Source: an uncultured Ignavibacteria bacterium (GTDB taxonomy: Bacteria > Bacteroidota > Ignavibacteria > Ignavibacteriales > Melioribacteraceae). Taken from it: a DNA stretch of 15,325 nucleotides. The notes under the pieces were generated by a model. The model was given only the letters and a program-made list of their open reading frames with translations, was not told where the DNA came from and made no database searches. The DNA lies in assembly GCA_937930275.1 (NCBI GenBank), contig CALGLM010000302.1, forward strand, positions 1 to 15,325. The letters run 5' to 3'. The position numbers were made by a program, and so were the translations under genes. Numbering within the stretch: position 1 is the first letter of the stretch; every line of letters starts with the position of its first letter. Shown in pieces: positions 2,275 through 10,450 of this stretch.

Positions 2275-2940
2275 TTATGCCTTTATAATGGTTCCGAATC
2301 CTCGTGATACTGACTTACCAATACCAATATAACTGGGTAAAAGAGCATTTGTTATAAAAGTAACCGCCATCCCAAGCATATTTTTGTCTTTAAACTTAGT
2401 CTCTTTTTCGCGATATACTATTTTTGCCAATATTTTATCTTCGGCAGTATAATTAACTGCTTTATAAAAACTAAGGATATTGCCAATCAATATTTTTTCA
2501 AGCATTTGTTCTTTTTCTTCTTTGCTTTCCAATGCCTGATAAATTTTATGGTTTTTTTGGTTTAATGCCATCCATAAAGTTAATGTTGTATAGTAATTTA
2601 ATTTGTTTTCTACATCAACTATAAAAGTATTGGTGTAAATATTTTTATTGTTTATAATGTACTCTCTATCATCCAATATCATTTTATCTATTTTTAAAAA
2701 TAAGTCGTTTAATAACTCCGCACCTTCGTTTAATCCTACCAAAGTCGGTACTTTTTCGATAACTTTATATTGCACCATTGGGTATTTATAAATGTTAGTT
2801 CCGTCATCGTAATGATTATGCAATAACGGTGAAACATCTTTAAAATAATTTCCAAAAAAGCCACGTATTTTGTGACTATCCCTAATAAATAAATCTAATT
2901 CGGGGAATTTAATAATTGTTTGTTTTACTTTTACATGCAT
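2275..2940 (-). CDS. cas6b: Cas6b-type crRNA-processing endoribonuclease
   Basis: This 221-residue RAMP protein would cut the precursor crRNA inside each repeat and leave the 8-nt 5' handle. It ends in the glycine-rich RNA-binding loop YIGIGKSVSRGFGTI (204-218), the Cas6 signature. Other family features are IRGFFGNYF (25-33), a candidate catalytic histidine pair H41/H43 in LLHNHYDDG, YPMVQYKV, LWMALNQ (122-128) and ILIGNILSFYK (150-160). I recognise this pattern as the Cas6b family (Cas6b N- and C-terminal domains). It overlaps the end of cas3 by 10 bp and is followed by cas1 after 2 bp. A different Cas6 heads the operon, so this is the second of two. The gene name is from recollection of the family, not a search. 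Confidence 0.85.
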   Translation of the reverse strand: MHVKVKQTIIKFPELDLFIRDSHKIRGFFGNYFKDVSPLLHNHYDDGTNIYKYPMVQYKVIEKVPTLVGLNEGAELLNDLFLKIDKMILDDREYIINNKNIYTNTFIVDVENKLNYYTTLTLWMALNQKNHKIYQALESKEEKEQMLEKILIGNILSFYKAVNYTAEDKILAKIVYREKETKFKDKNMLGMAVTFITNALLPSYIGIGKSVSRGFGTIIKA

Positions 2941-5312
2941 TGGCTTTTGTCCTCTTTTCTAATAAATCCGGTTTTAGTTTTATAAAAATAATCTATTATT
3001 TCATTTTTCACGTAATATAAATTTTTCCCTTTCCCTTTAAGGTCGTTTCTATCAATTAACGTTTTGGGAATACTTATAACATATTTGTTAAACAGTTTAA
3101 CATATTTGGCAAATTCTTCCTTAGTTATCTTTTTATCTATAAAATCGCAATATTTTTGATAGATTTCGGTAGCGGGAATTTCTTTTTTTCCTTTCTTTTC
3201 ATCATCAGGGTCTTTATCTAAATATTCAATAAAAACGGAATTTTCAAAAACATCATCTTCAATCAGTTTAAAGTCTGAAACTCCTTTTTTATCATTGTTT
3301 GAGTGATACTTAAGGTTTAACATTGCATCATAAATTTCTGAAGAGTCGGAAAATGATTTTTTATCGTTCAAAATTGTAAAATAATTGTTAATGGTTAATA
3401 AATAATCTTGCTCGGTAATTTCAGTTTTGTCCTTTAATAAATTGGAAGAAGTAATTTGAGCAATTGCTCCATAAATACGGGGGCAAGTTCCTAAATCGAA
3501 AATATAAACCGGTGCTGCTTCCTCTAAGTTATAATTACGGTTAACTCTTCCTGCTGTTTGTATAATACTATCAATTGGACTTAATTCCCTAAAAGCCATG
3601 TCAAAATCTAAATCAACACCCGCTTCAATTACTTGAGTACTTACCAAAATTGGCTTTTGCTTATCTTTAGTGTTTAATCTTTCATTAATCGCTTTCAGTA
3701 CTTTTTCTTTTTGCAAAGGAATTATATTAGTTGAAAGATAAAACAAATTATTCTCGCCAAATTCTTTTTCAAGAAAATTATGTATAAGTATTGAATTGTT
3801 AACCGTATTACATACAACAAGGCACGATTTTGAAGGATCATATTTAGATTTAAAGAAATCAAGAAACTCTTCAACTTTTAACTCAGATTTAATTAACGGA
3901 ATTAATTTTGTGCGGTTAAATTTATTAAAATATTTTTCGTGGTCGTTTAATAATTCGGTAAATTTAATTTCATTATGATTACCCAACAAATATTTATCTG
4001 CAAGTTCAAAAATAAAAGGACGTGTAGCGGTAGAAAAAATTATTTTGCAGTTTAAAAATTTGGTTAAATAATATAATGCCGCACCAATTAAAGGTAAATA
4101 CTCGGCTTTTAGTGCCTGAACTTCATCTAAAATAATAATAGAATTGGCGAGGTGATGAAATTTTTTTAAGAATTTGTTTCTGTTACCTATTAATGTTTGC
4201 AATAATTGTACAAATGAAGTAATAATAATATCCGATTGCCAAGTTTCCAAAATTTGAATTCTGTTACTGTACGTAATGTTTTCGTTATCGGCAAAATCGG
4301 GGTCAAAAGTGTCGGAAAATTGATAATGTGCCAATATTTTTGCGTTATTCCCCAGTACTTCTTTAATTACTTGTTCGGTTTGCTCAATAATGCTAATAAA
4401 CGGTAAAGAATAAATAATTTGGGGTAAGTTACCCGTCTCATTTTTAAGCACGTCCCTTAATTGCAAAGCAAATTCCAAATTAAGAAAAGTTTTACCGCTG
4501 CCTGTCGGGGCAGTTAAAGTAAATATATTGTTAGAAAGCAAATAATCTTTTGTTAGTTTTGTTTTAACTTCGTTTCTAATTTCGCTACGGATTTTGTTAA
4601 TAAAATTATCATCACGTTTTTTACTTTTAATATGTGTGCTAACGCTTTCTTTATCAATTTCAATTCTTGTATATTGTTCTGTATTACTTGCATCAAGTTT
4701 ATCTGCTTCAATTAATAAAGAAAATAAGTAGTTAATTAAGTAGTAGTTTTGGATGGACTTTTCTTTATCAATTTGTCTTATTTTATAAAATAAAGCTTTT
4801 TCGGGAACGCTAATATATTCTTTAATGATATTTGTATTTAAATCGTTTTCTATATCTTTTAAGTTTTTTTCTAAATCTAAATACTGATGGTTAAGTTTTT
4901 CTTTTAGAAGAATTCTTTCGTTAGGTAAATAAATTGGGTCATCGCTAAAATCATTAAAATTGCCATGGTGGTTTTTAATAATATAATAACCTAATAATGC
5001 AAGTTTGGGATTGTCGGTAATATACTTATTAAAAATGTAATAAGCTCCAATATGCGAGTGGTTACTTAATACGCTATCTTTATTTTTTCCGAGTAAATAA
5101 TTTTGAAAAAATGAAGTATATTTACCAAAATCGTGAAAGATAACAATATCATTTAAAAACGAACTTAATAAGTTGTTAGAATAAGAAAAATTTAAATTAT
5201 CGGGCAAATTACTTTTAGCAATTAAAGCGGCATTAAACAAATGCCGCCTTAATGGTTTAGTATCGGTAATTTTGTTATCCCCTGATTTATAAATGTGGGA
5301 ATAGAAATCCAT
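2931..5312 (-). CDS. cas3: Cas3, HD nuclease-helicase
   Basis: Cas3 is recruited by target-bound Cascade, unwinds DNA in the 3' to 5' direction and cuts the displaced strand. In this 793-residue protein the HD nuclease domain comes first: H24, H60-D61 (HDFGK), H85/H87, H115-H116 and D204. The SF2 helicase follows: Walker A APTGSGKT (268-275), motif II DEVQ (396-399) instead of DEAH/DEVH, motif III STAT (427-430), STQVIEAGVD (558-567) and motif VI QTAGRVNR (585-592). A shorter C-terminal region follows. All catalytic residues appear intact and the HD and helicase parts are fused. A GAGGT ribosome site (5319-5323) overlaps the cas5 stop. The stop overlaps cas6b. Confidence 0.97.
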   Translation of the reverse strand: MDFYSHIYKSGDNKITDTKPLRRHLFNAALIAKSNLPDNLNFSYSNNLLSSFLNDIVIFHDFGKYTSFFQNYLLGKNKDSVLSNHSHIGAYYIFNKYITDNPKLALLGYYIIKNHHGNFNDFSDDPIYLPNERILLKEKLNHQYLDLEKNLKDIENDLNTNIIKEYISVPEKALFYKIRQIDKEKSIQNYYLINYLFSLLIEADKLDASNTEQYTRIEIDKESVSTHIKSKKRDDNFINKIRSEIRNEVKTKLTKDYLLSNNIFTLTAPTGSGKTFLNLEFALQLRDVLKNETGNLPQIIYSLPFISIIEQTEQVIKEVLGNNAKILAHYQFSDTFDPDFADNENITYSNRIQILETWQSDIIITSFVQLLQTLIGNRNKFLKKFHHLANSIIILDEVQALKAEYLPLIGAALYYLTKFLNCKIIFSTATRPFIFELADKYLLGNHNEIKFTELLNDHEKYFNKFNRTKLIPLIKSELKVEEFLDFFKSKYDPSKSCLVVCNTVNNSILIHNFLEKEFGENNLFYLSTNIIPLQKEKVLKAINERLNTKDKQKPILVSTQVIEAGVDLDFDMAFRELSPIDSIIQTAGRVNRNYNLEEAAPVYIFDLGTCPRIYGAIAQITSSNLLKDKTEITEQDYLLTINNYFTILNDKKSFSDSSEIYDAMLNLKYHSNNDKKGVSDFKLIEDDVFENSVFIEYLDKDPDDEKKGKKEIPATEIYQKYCDFIDKKITKEEFAKYVKLFNKYVISIPKTLIDRNDLKGKGKNLYYVKNEIIDYFYKTKTGFIRKEDKSQCM

Positions 5313-5321
5313 TTTTTTACC

Positions 5322-6071
5322 TCAAATAAATTGAATGTTCCTATTATCTGCCAGTTTGCAATAATTACCGGTAAACTTAACTAATAAACCAATATTATCA
5401 AAAGTGTATAAAATCCTTTTAATTTCTTTAAGTTTACGATTATAGTTGCCCATAAAATCAACGGGTAATAAGTCTTCTTCCACAAAGTCAAAATCTTTTT
5501 TATTGTTAAAGCAAATTTTTGAAATACAATCGGAAATTACGGCAGAATCGAAACAAATAATCTCATTATTGGCAGTTTCCTCGTAACCATCAATTACGGC
5601 AAAATTAGTAATAGATGCAGAAAACTGTGCAACACCAAATGATAAATTATAAGTATTCTTTTTGGCAATTAGTTTTTGTTTCAATTCATTTCTAAAAGCG
5701 GGTTCAACCGCAAACAAAAATATTTTATAAACCAATTTACCTTCATTTAAGCTATCAGGTGTAAGTATTTCAAAAGGGGATTGGGTATGTTTTTTCTTTC
5801 CCATAAAATCATCCCAAGCCCTGTTTTTAATCATCAGATTATTAACTCTATGAAACGACTTTTTTAACGAGTTCTTTATACCTACTGCAATGTAAAGTTT
5901 GCTTTTAGATAAATCTTCATAATAAGAATCTCGCGGGTAACCCATAATTGCAGCAATTATACCCATAACCGTAGTTCTTGGTGGAATGGAATAAGATAAT
6001 GCTGTAGAATTAGAAAAATACTTTCTAAAATGGGCAAATTTACCAACTAAGTCAAAAGTTATTATTTCCAT
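5322..6071 (-). CDS. cas5b: Cas5, type I-B Cascade subunit
   Basis: Cas5 binds the crRNA 5' handle and caps the foot of Cascade next to Cas8. The 249-residue RAMP protein begins with the Cas5 N-terminal pattern: a beta strand EIITFDLVGKFAHFR, then YSIPPRTTVMGIIAAIMG (about 27-44), typical of the I-B (Hmari) subfamily. It has no visible catalytic histidine array, as expected where a separate Cas6 exists. It starts 4 bp after the cas7 stop and ends 9 bp before cas3, so it is plainly in the same transcript. Length is normal. Confidence 0.93.
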   Translation of the reverse strand: MEIITFDLVGKFAHFRKYFSNSTALSYSIPPRTTVMGIIAAIMGYPRDSYYEDLSKSKLYIAVGIKNSLKKSFHRVNNLMIKNRAWDDFMGKKKHTQSPFEILTPDSLNEGKLVYKIFLFAVEPAFRNELKQKLIAKKNTYNLSFGVAQFSASITNFAVIDGYEETANNEIICFDSAVISDCISKICFNNKKDFDFVEEDLLPVDFMGNYNRKLKEIKRILYTFDNIGLLVKFTGNYCKLADNRNIQFI

Positions 6072-6075
6072 AGCG

Positions 6076-7113
6076 TTAAATATTTAAATTAATATCCGGT
6101 GAGCTTTTTACAATAACGTTATTAATAACCTTATCATCACCTTTATTGTTTTTAATCAGGTTAATTAAATCGCTTAAATCTAATTGTAAATCGTCAAACT
6201 TACGAACCGCATCGTTATCAATACCATTTTTGGGTGTGCATTTAATGAAGTTACGTAAATCGCCAAATTGGCCGTTGGCATAACCGTTGTTATATTCAAA
6301 TTCTACATATAATTTGGGATATTGATTTAACTTACTGCGTGTTGGAGTTGCACTAATAGAGTTCCAAATAGCATTACGGAAGGTCTCTTTATCTTCTTCT
6401 GTTAAACCGGTGCTAACGGAAGCTGCTTTATTTATAGTTCCGTGAAAAGCAATTAAACTATAATAAAGTCTATAATCTTTTCCGAAAGTAGAATTGTCAT
6501 CGTTCATAATAGTTACAATAGCAGAAGTATCAATAAGTTTTACTTTATTTAATGAATAACCCCAAGTAAGCTGAATAGGTCCTGTATATGCTTTGGTAAA
6601 ACCTTTAATTGCAAAAGCACTGCCAAACATTCTTACGTCAATCATTTCTTCTTTAACAAACTGTTGTAATAATAAAATATTTAAATCTTTAATTTCTAAA
6701 TCGGGGATATTTAAATCTTTTAATACTTGGTCTTTAGCTTTTTCTGTCTGCAAAATATCTATTAATTTTTTGCTTCCTTTATTATTTAGAATTGATAAAA
6801 GGGCATCTTTTTCTTTGGTATAATCAGCTAATAGTTTGTTAATATCATCAGCGGTAATGTTAGTAATAATATTTTTTAATCTGGTATCGGGGCTTACTTT
6901 TTGTTCGTCTTCCAAATCAACAAAAATATCTTTGCCAATAGTTTTTAGATAATCGCGAATATAACGTTTTAATCTTACATCTGTAACCAAGTTTGTATTG
7001 GTGTCGTAATCCATACGTGGTTTATTTTCCATATCCGGATCGCCATTAGGGTTACAATTAATTGCTTCGTAAATAAATACAAAATCGCTATTGTTTTTAA
7101 TTAAATCAGCCAT
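6076..7113 (-). CDS. cas7b: Cas7, type I-B Cascade backbone (Csh2 family)
   Basis: Cas7 polymerises along the spacer part of the crRNA to form the Cascade backbone. The 345-residue protein carries Csh2 family signatures: CNPNGDPDMENKPRMD (20-35), VTDVRLKRYIRDYL (43-56), DVRMFGSAFAIKG (159-171), GPIQLTWGYSLNKV (178-191) and the late FGDLRNFI (283-290). A charged, helix-rich stretch at about 85-150 may be an inserted domain. It starts 1 bp after the cas8b stop. The last codons of cas8b create a strong GGAGGAG ribosome site at 7118-7124, which suits the high Cas7 copy number needed in Cascade. Confidence 0.95.
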   Translation of the reverse strand: MADLIKNNSDFVFIYEAINCNPNGDPDMENKPRMDYDTNTNLVTDVRLKRYIRDYLKTIGKDIFVDLEDEQKVSPDTRLKNIITNITADDINKLLADYTKEKDALLSILNNKGSKKLIDILQTEKAKDQVLKDLNIPDLEIKDLNILLLQQFVKEEMIDVRMFGSAFAIKGFTKAYTGPIQLTWGYSLNKVKLIDTSAIVTIMNDDNSTFGKDYRLYYSLIAFHGTINKAASVSTGLTEEDKETFRNAIWNSISATPTRSKLNQYPKLYVEFEYNNGYANGQFGDLRNFIKCTPKNGIDNDAVRKFDDLQLDLSDLINLIKNNKGDDKVINNVIVKSSPDINLNI

Positions 7114-7114
7114 T

Positions 7115-7534
7115 TTACTCCTCCGTGTTGTTTGTTAATTGAATAGTTTCATTTTGGTCGTTATCTTTAGAACCAACATAAAAAGAATACCCGTTTAATA
7201 AAAAGAAAAGAGCCTCGTTGGCGGGTAAATTCCAATTGTTATAATTAAATAATTTTGCAAACTTACCGTCTAAAAACGATAAATCTTCTTTGTACTGTCT
7301 TGCTTTTTCGTAAAGTTCGCTTCTCAATTTTACAATTTCTCGTAAACCCATGCCGTTGAAGTTGATTTTTTGTAAAATCGGTTTTTGTTCGTGTCCTTTA
7401 GTAAATTGTGCATAACCTATCATACTAACCATTCTGCCCAAATAAAACATAGCTTTTTGCAGGTCAGTATAACCGTGTTGTGCAAATAGTTCTTCTTCTT
7501 TGGCACTGTAAGTGTTTGTCGGTTTTTCTTCCAT
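7115..7534 (-). CDS. cas11b: Cas11b small subunit from an internal start in cas8b
   Basis: An in-frame ATG at 7534 (Met504 of Cas8b) would yield a 139-residue protein covering only the helical C-terminal region of Cas8b. It is preceded by GGAGGG with four bases between, a much better ribosome site than that of cas8b itself. In several type I-B, I-C and I-D systems the small subunit Cas11 is known to be made this way from within cas8 or cas10d, and it lines the inner face of Cascade. The start also falls in a low-complexity linker (EGKMEEKPTNTYSAKEEE), just before the predicted helices. The sequence evidence for the start is direct; production of the protein is inferred. Confidence 0.8.
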   Translation of the reverse strand: MEEKPTNTYSAKEEELFAQHGYTDLQKAMFYLGRMVSMIGYAQFTKGHEQKPILQKINFNGMGLREIVKLRSELYEKARQYKEDLSFLDGKFAKLFNYNNWNLPANEALFFLLNGYSFYVGSKDNDQNETIQLTNNTEE

Positions 7535-9043
7535 TTTTCCCTCCATAAAATTATGGTTTGTTAATTGATTAAGGTCTAATAATGTTTTTATTAAAATTAA
7601 ATAGTTATTAATTGCATCTTTTATAAAAAAATCAAAATATTTAGTTTCGCTATAAGGATATACGTTTTTGTAACACCCTTTTACTTTTTTCCTATCTAAA
7701 AAATAATATAAAGCCAGCTCTTTAAAGTGAGCATAGATATTTTGAATATCAATAATCTTGTTTTCTAATATGGCATCAATTAAATCTAATGCAGGATTTT
7801 TACTCGTATCAGGGCTTTTTATAGGAATAATATTATAAATGGTTCGGAAATTATAAGTATATTTTGGTGCTTTACCCAATATTTTAATAGAATTATCAAT
7901 AAACAGTTTGCTAATATTAAGTAGTTTTGCGCTGTTTACGTCTTTTATTCTATTAACCAATTTAAAACTTGCTTTATCGGATTCAAAACCAAAATAATTA
8001 AACCAAAAAATGTTTTCTTCCAATTCGTTTGCTTCTTTAAAGTAATTAACAGCGTATTCAAATTCCTTTGAATTAAAAGCAATATCGTTAATTTTTTTTA
8101 ACTCTTCTACTTCATATATTAAATCTTTATCAAAACCATATGGAAATTCGGGGATTAAAATATGAGGTGTTCCCGCAATATTAATTTTAAGATTTTTTAT
8201 TAAAAAATTAGAAGCAAATTCAACTATTTCTTTCGATTTTTTACTTAAACTATAATTAATGCCAAAGTTCTCTTTTTGAAAATAACTGGCGTAATTAATT
8301 TTGTCAGTAATAAATATTTTGGATAGATCATTTGCGGAAAAATCACCACCGGCTAATAAATTCGGTTCATCTTTTCCTGCAACATAACAAAACCCGCTTT
8401 CATCAGATTCTTGTGGTAATAATTCACGTTTAACTAAGTCGGTATATCCGTCAATTGAAGCTGCTAAAGTTGGTTCGTTAATTCCAAGCTTTTCGGCTTT
8501 AATCAATAAATAATAAAGCATTACGCTATTTTTACTTTTAAGCCCCAATAACTGCTGAATACCTTTAATAAAGACATCTTTATTAAACTCTAATACCTGC
8601 TCTTTAACCAAAACGGGGTTATAAAGGTTTTCGTAATTAAATTGTTCAAAGTTTTCTTCAATTAGTTCGGCAACTTTAAAAATTAAACGTTCTTTAAAAA
8701 GATCGTTGTGTTGTAAAAGTCTAATTTTTAAGTCGCAAGAACTTTTATCGTTGTGTAAAGTTCCGACTAACTTACCGTATCCTTTGCCATCTACGGTAAG
8801 ATAAAATTTGCGTTGGTTGCCTATAATTGATTTGGTGGCTAAAAACTTTTTAATTGAGTTAGCTCCGTCATACTCGCTTAAATATTGTGGGTCTAAAACC
8901 ACCTTGTTTTGATCCAAGTCAATCAAAATACCAACATTGTAATACTTAACGTCTTTTTCCTCTTTAGGAGGGTCGATAAGTATTTTTTCTAAATCATCAC
9001 TTTGTTCAAGCTTCAGTCCAAATTTGTAAAGTAAATTTAACAT
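7115..9043 (-). CDS. cas8b: Cas8b, type I-B Cascade large subunit
   Basis: Cas8 recognises the PAM and recruits Cas3. The 642-residue protein resembles the TM1802/Csh1 group of Cas8b. I recognise it mainly from its C-terminal region, with the helical block KAMFYLGRMVSMIGYAQF (530-547), LREIVKLRSELYEKARQY (567-584) and ANEALFFLLNGYSFY (608-622), and from its place before cas7 and cas5. The ATG at 9043 is preferred over a TTG at 9085: an AAGGA element precedes it, and the extra 14 residues look like untranslated sequence. The central region has FCYVAGKDEP (218-227), where relatives I recall have a CxxC zinc motif; here only one cysteine remains. The C-terminal 139 residues can also be made separately as Cas11b. 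Confidence 0.9.
   Translation of the reverse strand: MLNLLYKFGLKLEQSDDLEKILIDPPKEEKDVKYYNVGILIDLDQNKVVLDPQYLSEYDGANSIKKFLATKSIIGNQRKFYLTVDGKGYGKLVGTLHNDKSSCDLKIRLLQHNDLFKERLIFKVAELIEENFEQFNYENLYNPVLVKEQVLEFNKDVFIKGIQQLLGLKSKNSVMLYYLLIKAEKLGINEPTLAASIDGYTDLVKRELLPQESDESGFCYVAGKDEPNLLAGGDFSANDLSKIFITDKINYASYFQKENFGINYSLSKKSKEIVEFASNFLIKNLKINIAGTPHILIPEFPYGFDKDLIYEVEELKKINDIAFNSKEFEYAVNYFKEANELEENIFWFNYFGFESDKASFKLVNRIKDVNSAKLLNISKLFIDNSIKILGKAPKYTYNFRTIYNIIPIKSPDTSKNPALDLIDAILENKIIDIQNIYAHFKELALYYFLDRKKVKGCYKNVYPYSETKYFDFFIKDAINNYLILIKTLLDLNQLTNHNFMEGKMEEKPTNTYSAKEEELFAQHGYTDLQKAMFYLGRMVSMIGYAQFTKGHEQKPILQKINFNGMGLREIVKLRSELYEKARQYKEDLSFLDGKFAKLFNYNNWNLPANEALFFLLNGYSFYVGSKDNDQNETIQLTNNTEE
7118..7124 (-). 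promoter_or_regulatory. Strong Shine-Dalgarno site for cas7
   Basis: GGAGGAG lies four bases before the cas7 ATG and is encoded by the terminal codons of cas8b (Glu-Glu-stop). It is far closer to consensus than most starts in this window. Translational coupling to cas8b and a high Cas7 level are the likely results. Confidence 0.7.
7539..7544 (-). promoter_or_regulatory. Internal ribosome binding site for Cas11b
   Basis: GGAGGG on the minus strand lies inside the cas8b reading frame, four bases before the in-frame ATG at 7532-7534. It encodes Glu-Gly of Cas8b. This is one of the two best Shine-Dalgarno matches in the operon; the other precedes cas7. Confidence 0.75.
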
Positions 9044-9141: not shown

Positions 9142-10110
9142 CTATTTAAATATAATAGTATATTTACCGTACCCTGAAAGTATGCTTTTTCCTATTCCTA
9201 AAAACGAACCGATATGAAGAATTATTCCGATTTTAGAAAAATCACCAAATAGAATTAAATTACCAAGCATAGCGGAACTATCGTGTAGTTTCTTTTTATT
9301 CTTTTTAGCTTTTTCCGTTTCGACAAATTTTAAAGTATTACTTATTATTTGAGGTAAATCTCCGCTTTTATCCAAAATGCTTAAATTACCCAAATTTTTG
9401 TTGTCGCAAAACAAATATGCACACGAAAGGTATCTTCTTTCAATTGCTTCCAAAAGTAATTTCAAATTAACTTCGTCATTATTAGTTACAACCTTCCCTT
9501 TATTCATTAATTGCAAGGGAGTATTAAAATCCAAAACCGCTTTATTATATTTGGCGTAATTTAATTTGCTAAGTGTTTCGATATTAACGCTTGGTAAATT
9601 TTGTTCAAGCAAATCGGTTTCTTTATTTATGGCAGCAGTTCGTTTGTCTTTGTAATCGGCTACAAATATGTTAGTTATGCTAAATTTTGCTTTTTCTCTT
9701 CCAAAACCGTCATTTCCCCAATTATTTAGGGCTGTTCTAACATCGTTAAAATAGAGATTATAATCGCCAAAAATAGTAATCATTAACTCCAGTCTATCGT
9801 TTGCAAAAAATTTGCGTTTACTTGTTTCCGGTTGGTGAATAATAAACGGGAACGGAAATTTTTTAATCGATTTTAAATAATAATAATCCGGATACTGTTG
9901 AATCTCTTCAAACATTTTATAATATTTACAACTGTCCTGAAGATTACAATCATCGCAGTAATCTAAATTTTCGGAACATAATAAATTTCTATAAGCCTTC
10001 AAAAACTCCGTTTTAAGCATATTTCCCCAAAAAATAGGGAAACTTACCCCGTTAATGAATTTAATTTCAAAAACAAACCTTGTAAAGTACAAATTAGGTA
10101 AAGGGGTCAT
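9142..10110 (-). CDS. cas6: Cas6, second-type RAMP endoribonuclease at operon head
   Basis: This 322-residue RAMP protein fits the Cas6 family with a cysteine-rich N-terminal region. C45, C52, C55 and C61 lie in LLCSENLDYCDDCNLQDSC, followed by KYYKMFEE, a pattern I associate with the PF10040-like Cas6 group. It ends in a glycine-rich loop HIGSFLGIGKSILSGYGKY (299-317), with H299 a possible catalytic residue. It would cut precursor crRNA at the repeat. I chose the ATG at 10110; the longer reading frame to 10140 needs a TTG and adds an untypical FHFFNGLLF stretch. It shares little with the 221-residue Cas6b between cas3 and cas1 beyond the G-rich loop. It may process this array, or serve another system in the genome such as type III. 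Confidence 0.85.
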   Translation of the reverse strand: MTPLPNLYFTRFVFEIKFINGVSFPIFWGNMLKTEFLKAYRNLLCSENLDYCDDCNLQDSCKYYKMFEEIQQYPDYYYLKSIKKFPFPFIIHQPETSKRKFFANDRLELMITIFGDYNLYFNDVRTALNNWGNDGFGREKAKFSITNIFVADYKDKRTAAINKETDLLEQNLPSVNIETLSKLNYAKYNKAVLDFNTPLQLMNKGKVVTNNDEVNLKLLLEAIERRYLSCAYLFCDNKNLGNLSILDKSGDLPQIISNTLKFVETEKAKKNKKKLHDSSAMLGNLILFGDFSKIGIILHIGSFLGIGKSILSGYGKYTIIFK

Positions 10111-10450
10111 GAATAATAATCCGTTAAAAAAATGAAACAACTAAATACAAAGGAGCACAAATTTTCCTTAATTTCCAAAATGAATTGAAAATTTTTATAA
10201 AGAGCTTAATAATTCGCTCAGTTTCCTTTGAACCGTAAAAACAGAAAAAACAATAATTTGTAAACATTAAAAATAATTTTCCTCTCAAAATAACCCATAT
10301 ACTAAATACAAGTTAGTAATAATTTTTTATTAAGTCAAGTGAAAAAAGGTTTAATCCACATATTATGGGGTACGTTTAATTTTAAAAACCGAACCGATTG
10401 CTAAAATGATTAAATAAGGGGTTGTAACCAAAGGGCAAATTTTTATGAAA

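Follow-up and report, generated by a model that had tools for sequence, protein, structure and literature searches.

Genes of the locus

The minus strand of the window, by which we mean the whole stretch of 15,325 nucleotides analysed here, carries a type I-B cas operon of the Cas8b1/TM1802 branch, in which all expected cas genes are present. On the basis of the open reading frame list and profile matches, it comprises a cas6-like gene (weak match), cas8b, cas7, cas5, cas3, cas6b, cas1, cas2 and cas4; the features relevant to this study are collected in Table 1. The TIGR02591 (Csh1) profile gave a score of 59.4 with the window cas8b, which is below its cut-off of 104.05. No stand-alone cas11 gene was found in the operon: the minus-strand reading frames of at least 80 amino acids all match other cas or flanking genes, the one at 9142-10140 being assigned weakly, as Cas6.

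Table 1. Coordinates of the features discussed in the text
Feature	Position	Strand	Basis
cas8b, parent gene, TM1802/Csh1 family, 642 aa	7115..9043	-	PF09484, 150 bits (cut-off 25.1)
proposed cas11b, 139 aa, in frame within cas8b	7115..7534	-	sequence, helical model, PDB fold matches
GGAGGG, Shine-Dalgarno-like (SD)	7539..7544	-	spelled by end of Met500, Glu501 (GAG) and Gly502 (GGA)
inner start ATG (Met504)	7532..7534	-	conservation in homologues
disordered linker, codons 505-512, directly after the inner start	7508..7531	-	pLDDT <50
cas7 start region GGAGGAGTAAAATG with its own GGAGG, spelled by the final cas8b codons	7111..7124	-	
cas7 (Csh2), gene after cas8b	6076..7113	-	TIGR02590 above cut-off
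cas5	5322..6071	-	TIGR02593 above cut-off; TIGR02592 below its own cut-off
cas3 (HD and helicase)	2931..5312	-	TIGR01587, TIGR01596
cas6b	2275..2940	-	PF17262, PF17955

Several minor features of the region may be mentioned. The second Cas6-like gene, located upstream of cas8b, gave a weak PF10040 match below cut-off, and the assignment of cas6b is clear. The cas5 start lies a few bases past the cas7 stop and is devoid of any SD (+1.7 kcal/mol); perhaps it is translationally coupled. No CRISPR repeat array was seen in the window, where two-copy repeat families were the only ones detected, and no Rfam family matched it at gathering scores. Among genomes of the Ignavibacteria-like class (that of genome G001), 20 of 149 contain relatives of the flanking permease, up to 61% identical, and the 149 from the Bacteroidia-like class (that of G004) yielded none at E 1e-100; database relatives reach 72% identity, besides one identical entry. 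The host is likely to lie close to Ignavibacteria and not within Bacteroidia.

The proposed start codon inside cas8b

Around the inner start the minus strand reads TTTTATGGAGGGAAAAATGGAAGAAAAACC, that is, GGAGGG followed by AAAA and by an ATG corresponding to Met504, counting from the cas8b ATG at 9043. The frame opened by this codon has 139 codons and ends at the stop common with cas8b; the predicted N-terminus of its product is MEEKPTNTYSAK. The arrangement described in the earlier note, with GGAGGG four bases before an in-frame ATG and a product of 139 residues, is thus present in the sequence.

By itself, the GGAGGG-ATG motif is weak evidence, hardly beyond chance. The window contains two copies of the pattern GGAGGN{3,8}ATG, one at Met504 and the other at the cas7 start; 0.64 would be expected on both strands, and 23 of 200 shuffled windows had at least two. 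When the Cas8b amino acids were fixed and codons resampled, Met504 acquired an equal or stronger SD in 15.5% of the draws under the codon usage of the window and in 22.9% under that of cas8b itself. Such frequencies speak for the possibility that the C-terminal domain works only within full-length Cas8b, with Met504 and GGAGGG being by-products of the peptide Met-Glu-Gly-Lys-Met, as does the fusion of the small subunit to the large one reported for types I-F and I-G. We nevertheless regard this explanation as unlikely, in the light of the comparisons presented below.

Calculated energies of the duplex with the 16S rRNA tail were -10.5 kcal/mol for cas8b Met1, -9.8 for Met504, -9.5 for cas7 and -7.0 for cas3, the other starts being weaker. 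The inner SD had been proposed to be stronger than that of the parent gene, which was not borne out; it is better only as an unbroken GGAGG. The accompanying statement that most starts of the operon have weak ribosome sites holds generally, with cas7, whose GGAGG is equally good, as an exception. The idea that a strong SD is confined to the multicopy subunits, Cas7 and Cas11, was also considered, and it was dropped because the duplex energy of cas8b Met1 equals theirs. Since the motif alone is not rare and the parent start is not weaker, the case for the inner start must rest on comparison.

One could also imagine that an internal promoter produces a separate cas11-cas7 message, in which the inner start would be an ordinary 5' gene start. 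A promoter-like match does lie at 7578-7550 on the minus strand, but it is one of four on this strand between 7000 and 9200, and such matches on both strands are fewer than in shuffled sequences (6 vs 10.9). Moreover, the same ATG and SD would still be used, so that the message would be altered and the product unchanged. Of the alternatives weighed here, this one appears the least credible.

Conservation of the inner methionine and predicted structure

In an alignment of the window Cas8b with 11 homologues of 38-98% identity (P0002-P0013, which are metagenomic, being known as proteins), Met504 and Glu501 are invariant in all 12 sequences and Gly502 is found in 11 of them; the linker beyond varies. 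The broader alignment, A1, excludes two of the 77 matches (P0049 and P0064); P0008, ending before the linker, was not counted. Of 75 aligned homologues, 73 carry a Met within the linker, against 34-40% expected from Met frequency. At the DNA level the linker ATG is present in 64 of 67 loci, with the window counted, repeats of other loci (L037-L043, L061, L075) dropped and two loci (L055, L056) giving no profile match; the loci without it are L031, L035 (truncated) and L074. As to DNA of close relatives, a scan of genome contigs with the window protein revealed no relative, viral contigs scanned with A2 contained none, and a 395-genome sample of the phylum of G001 contained only three, at 32-35% identity.

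The few sequences departing from the rule deserve a comment. A linker Met is missing only from the homologues P0074 and P0075; both read Glu-Glu-Glu-Glu-Gly-Val at this site, a peptide whose codons could form an SD and a GTG start. L031, from Hymenobacter arizonensis, has a full-length cas8b without the linker ATG, and L021 of the same genus has one, so that a loss of the inner start is possible. The next Met downstream (in the motif FFxKM) was considered as the true start and rejected, since it shows no synonymous signal and is replaced by His in the window.

The AlphaFold2 model of full-length Cas8b (pLDDT 86.3) contains two stretches with pLDDT below 50, namely residues 505-512 and the C-terminal tail, 626-642. 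The former stretch sits between a helix ending at residue 490 and the helical C-terminal domain starting at 514, which agrees with the boundary between linker and helices described in the earlier note. As the linker following Met504 has such low pLDDT, no structural need for the Met is seen. Preservation of this residue in nearly all homologues inside a disordered linker argues against its being a by-product of the peptide.

When residues 504-642 were modelled separately, as the earlier note had suggested, a helical bundle with a mean pLDDT of 85.4 was obtained, and its five best PDB matches were all chains of type I-C Cascades (8dex, 8g9t, 8dfa, 8g9s, 9jhc). These chains were taken as Cas11 or the Cas8c C-terminus from their length and range, without a label; they share 3-9% identity with the window product over the aligned parts and belong with a different Cas8 family. 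Thus, the 139-residue product is predicted to be an alpha-helical bundle resembling other Cas11 proteins. Type I-C Cas11c is likewise made from inside cas8 (PMC7684278).

A disordered linker after residue 504 would also suit proteolysis, by which a small subunit could arise without inner translation; indeed, small Cas8b species of two I-B systems were first taken as products of fragmentation (PMC11899642). Cleavage, however, needs neither a Met nor the GAG choice, SD or unstructured leader described below, and in Haloferax the small product is abolished by a change of the Met (PMC11899642). This explanation therefore seems very improbable.

Initiation signals and host class

An SD was called when the sequence preceding the linker ATG paired with the 16S tail at an energy of -8 kcal/mol or lower. 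Class names were inferred from reference loci (L036, L019, L022), named loci being classified by their own names. So defined, an SD precedes the linker Met in 10 of 12 clostridial loci by a rule blind to the SD (11 of 12 with L072 counted at its SD-bearing Met), in 4 of 13 loci of the Ignavibacteria-like class (five others being intermediate and four having little or none), in none of the 29 Bacteroidia loci and in none of nine mixed or unassigned Bacteroidota-like loci, of which L006, L007 and L077 share one stretch and L001 and L002 are near copies.

This gradation parallels the use of SD at gene starts, which amounts to 0.68 and 0.62 in two sampled clostridial genomes (background 0.07-0.09), 0.04-0.36 in eight Ignavibacteria-like sets (background 0.04-0.18) and 0.06 at 17 Bacteroidia loci (background 0.10); the window, with 10 genes only, has 0.20 against a background of 0.03. 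The start of the next gene, cas7 in the window, has an SD in 12 of 13 Clostridia, 4 of 12 members of the Ignavibacteria-like class and 0 of 30 Bacteroidia. Energies at the linker Met and at the next gene correlate over 53 loci (rho 0.66; a set without the window, the nine mixed loci or any locus lacking the linker ATG) but not inside any class, which indicates that the difference lies between classes. One locus from the Ignavibacteria-like sample, L054, carries a linker of the Bacteroidia type (LNLINM) and lacks an SD at both cas11 and the next gene; either a recent transfer or a binning error may be responsible.

The SDs of individual loci are spelled by quite different peptides (MEG, KEA, KED, KEV, KGG, LGG, ERG), which is difficult to reconcile with a by-product of one conserved peptide. 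Nine of 26 SD-type loci carry Glu at the third codon before the Met, encoded by GAG in every case, although gene-wide GAG usage is 0.13-0.40. At Glu three codons before other Mets, GAG was found in 4 of 13 cases (Fisher P 0.0014). This position was picked after the pattern had been seen, and the independent cases are fewer than nine, given the similarity here between L066 and L068 and among L049, L051 and L052. The GAG preference again argues against the by-product explanation. Jointly, clostridial SDs exceed what synonymous draws would give (combined statistic 49.1, 24 df), with the lowest single P being 0.048 and several loci being near copies; the excess in the Ignavibacteria-like class (37.1, 26 df) does not reach significance.

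The earlier note had named loss of GGAGGG-ATG in close relatives as a finding that would count against an inner gene. The SD is indeed absent from Bacteroidia; the ATG, on the other hand, is kept there, with signals suiting an SD-independent ribosome. It thus appears from the aligned loci that the element conserved across the Cas8b family is not the SD but the inner ATG. Ribosomes of Bacteroidia are reported to fail to recognise SD, the 16S tail being held by bS21, bS18 and bS6, and low structure is reported to aid initiation (PMC9976891, PMC8710568).

Bacteroidia-type loci, 36 in all (the 29 Bacteroidia plus seven of the nine mixed ones), were compared with their synonymous versions: the leader before the linker ATG has less structure in 32 of them, a lower number of G in 34 and a higher number of A in 29. 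A control set of 312 further in-frame Mets from these genes gave corresponding numbers of 152, 150 and 166. The effect was retained when near relatives were removed (6 of the 9 mixed loci were taken in this comparison): representatives below 80% identity showed less structure in 26 of 32 and fewer G in 28 of 32 cases, and those below 60% in 20 of 23 for both measures, against 100 and 95 of 199 other Mets. Below 50% identity it was weak (structure 12/15, P 0.033; fewer G 11/15, P 0.056). The next Met downstream, compared with 7 of the 9 mixed loci included, showed no leader signal (structure 19/31, G 16/31). No clear excess of the A-3/A-6/A-12/A-13 pattern of F. johnsoniae was found at 29 Bacteroidia loci (1.83 vs 1.64 in synonymous draws). 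Synonymous signals of this kind in the leader are a further point against the by-product explanation.

Interpretation and comparison with known systems

Taking these results together, it is very probable, as judged from sequence comparison and structure modelling, that cas8b encloses a second gene in its own frame, Met1 giving Cas8b and Met504 independently giving a Cas11b of 139 residues. Ribosomes starting at Met1 would synthesise the large subunit, and those starting at Met504, positioned by pairing of GGAGGG with the 16S tail, would produce a protein identical to the C-terminal domain of Cas8b. By analogy with solved type I Cascades, several copies of Cas11b may line the inner face of the complex and hold the displaced DNA strand. 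We infer the production of Cas11b, its copy number and its role; the hidden gene proposed in the earlier note is supported by the Met conservation, the GAG choice and the helical-bundle model.

Synthesis of Cas11 by internal translation is established for types I-B, I-C and I-D, in line with the earlier note and as documented in published work (PMC11899642, PMC11096372, PMC7684278, PMC10212523), so that the window adds one more member. The less ordinary aspect seems to be that the signal of the inner start follows the initiation mode of the host. We consider it somewhat favoured that the intragenic cas11 start is rebuilt for this mode: the inner ATG would be the element fixed family-wide, and the signal ahead of it would be swapped according to the host, with an SD in SD-using bacteria (Clostridia, the window and part of the Ignavibacteria-like class) and, in Bacteroidia, a leader that is unstructured, poor in G and devoid of an SD. 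If true, this would be a case of SD-free internal initiation in Bacteroidia, undescribed as far as our searches show, and would account for the failure of SD-based searches to detect Cas11 in this class. Among the matches listed in searches of the open literature, no paper on an SD-free Cas11 start in Bacteroidia was found. The Bacteroidia loci are natural candidates for studying how SD-blind ribosomes choose an AUG within a translated gene. As a practical rule, unannotated Cas11 should be sought by a kept Met in the disordered linker of Cas8b rather than by an SD.

One of the closest known systems is the I-B1 of Thermotoga maritima, which is of the same type, with Cas8b1 containing cas11 in its 3' end (PMC13199841), and whose genome matched the PF09484 profile as a control. 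Its inner start is reported as predicted, giving no product in E. coli and thought to be suboptimal, whereas the window has a full GGAGGG. In the same report, T. maritima Cas8b1 did not co-purify in the absence of Cas11 (PMC13199841). Rebuilding the window system elsewhere would require a separate cas11 or an intact inner start.

In Haloferax volcanii, whose genome also matched PF09484 as a control, I-B Cas11b is translated from an in-frame ATG inside cas8b, preceded by an SD-like GGATG; this archaeal protein is larger (28.9 kDa) than the window product (PMC11899642). Type I-B Cas11b of Synechocystis PCC 6714 (PDB 8H67/8IP0) likewise derives from the 3' end of cas8b and is identical to the C-terminal portion of Cas8b, in a Cascade of the composition Cas8b1-Cas7b7-Cas5b1-Cas6b1-Cas11b3 (PMC11096372), but the Cas8b in question belongs to a different branch (Cmx8/Myxan) from that of the window. 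Synechocystis Cas11 gave no sequence match in PDB searches and was absent from the fold matches, an absence that excludes nothing.

Stand-alone Cas11-like proteins were considered as evidence and rejected. We found 95 of them, 60 of which begin 15-50 residues before the anchor motif; they were not counted because 84 of the 95 occur on contigs shorter than 10 kb at the longest, and many are possibly cut genes. Four stand-alone proteins of the Cas8b C-terminal family (P0203, P0206, P0245 and P0250; 145-158 residues) come from longer contigs, the longest ones being 94-843 kb. These are possibly natural two-gene splits of cas8b, or frameshifts; P0203 and P0206 begin, as judged by eye, at the linker Met.
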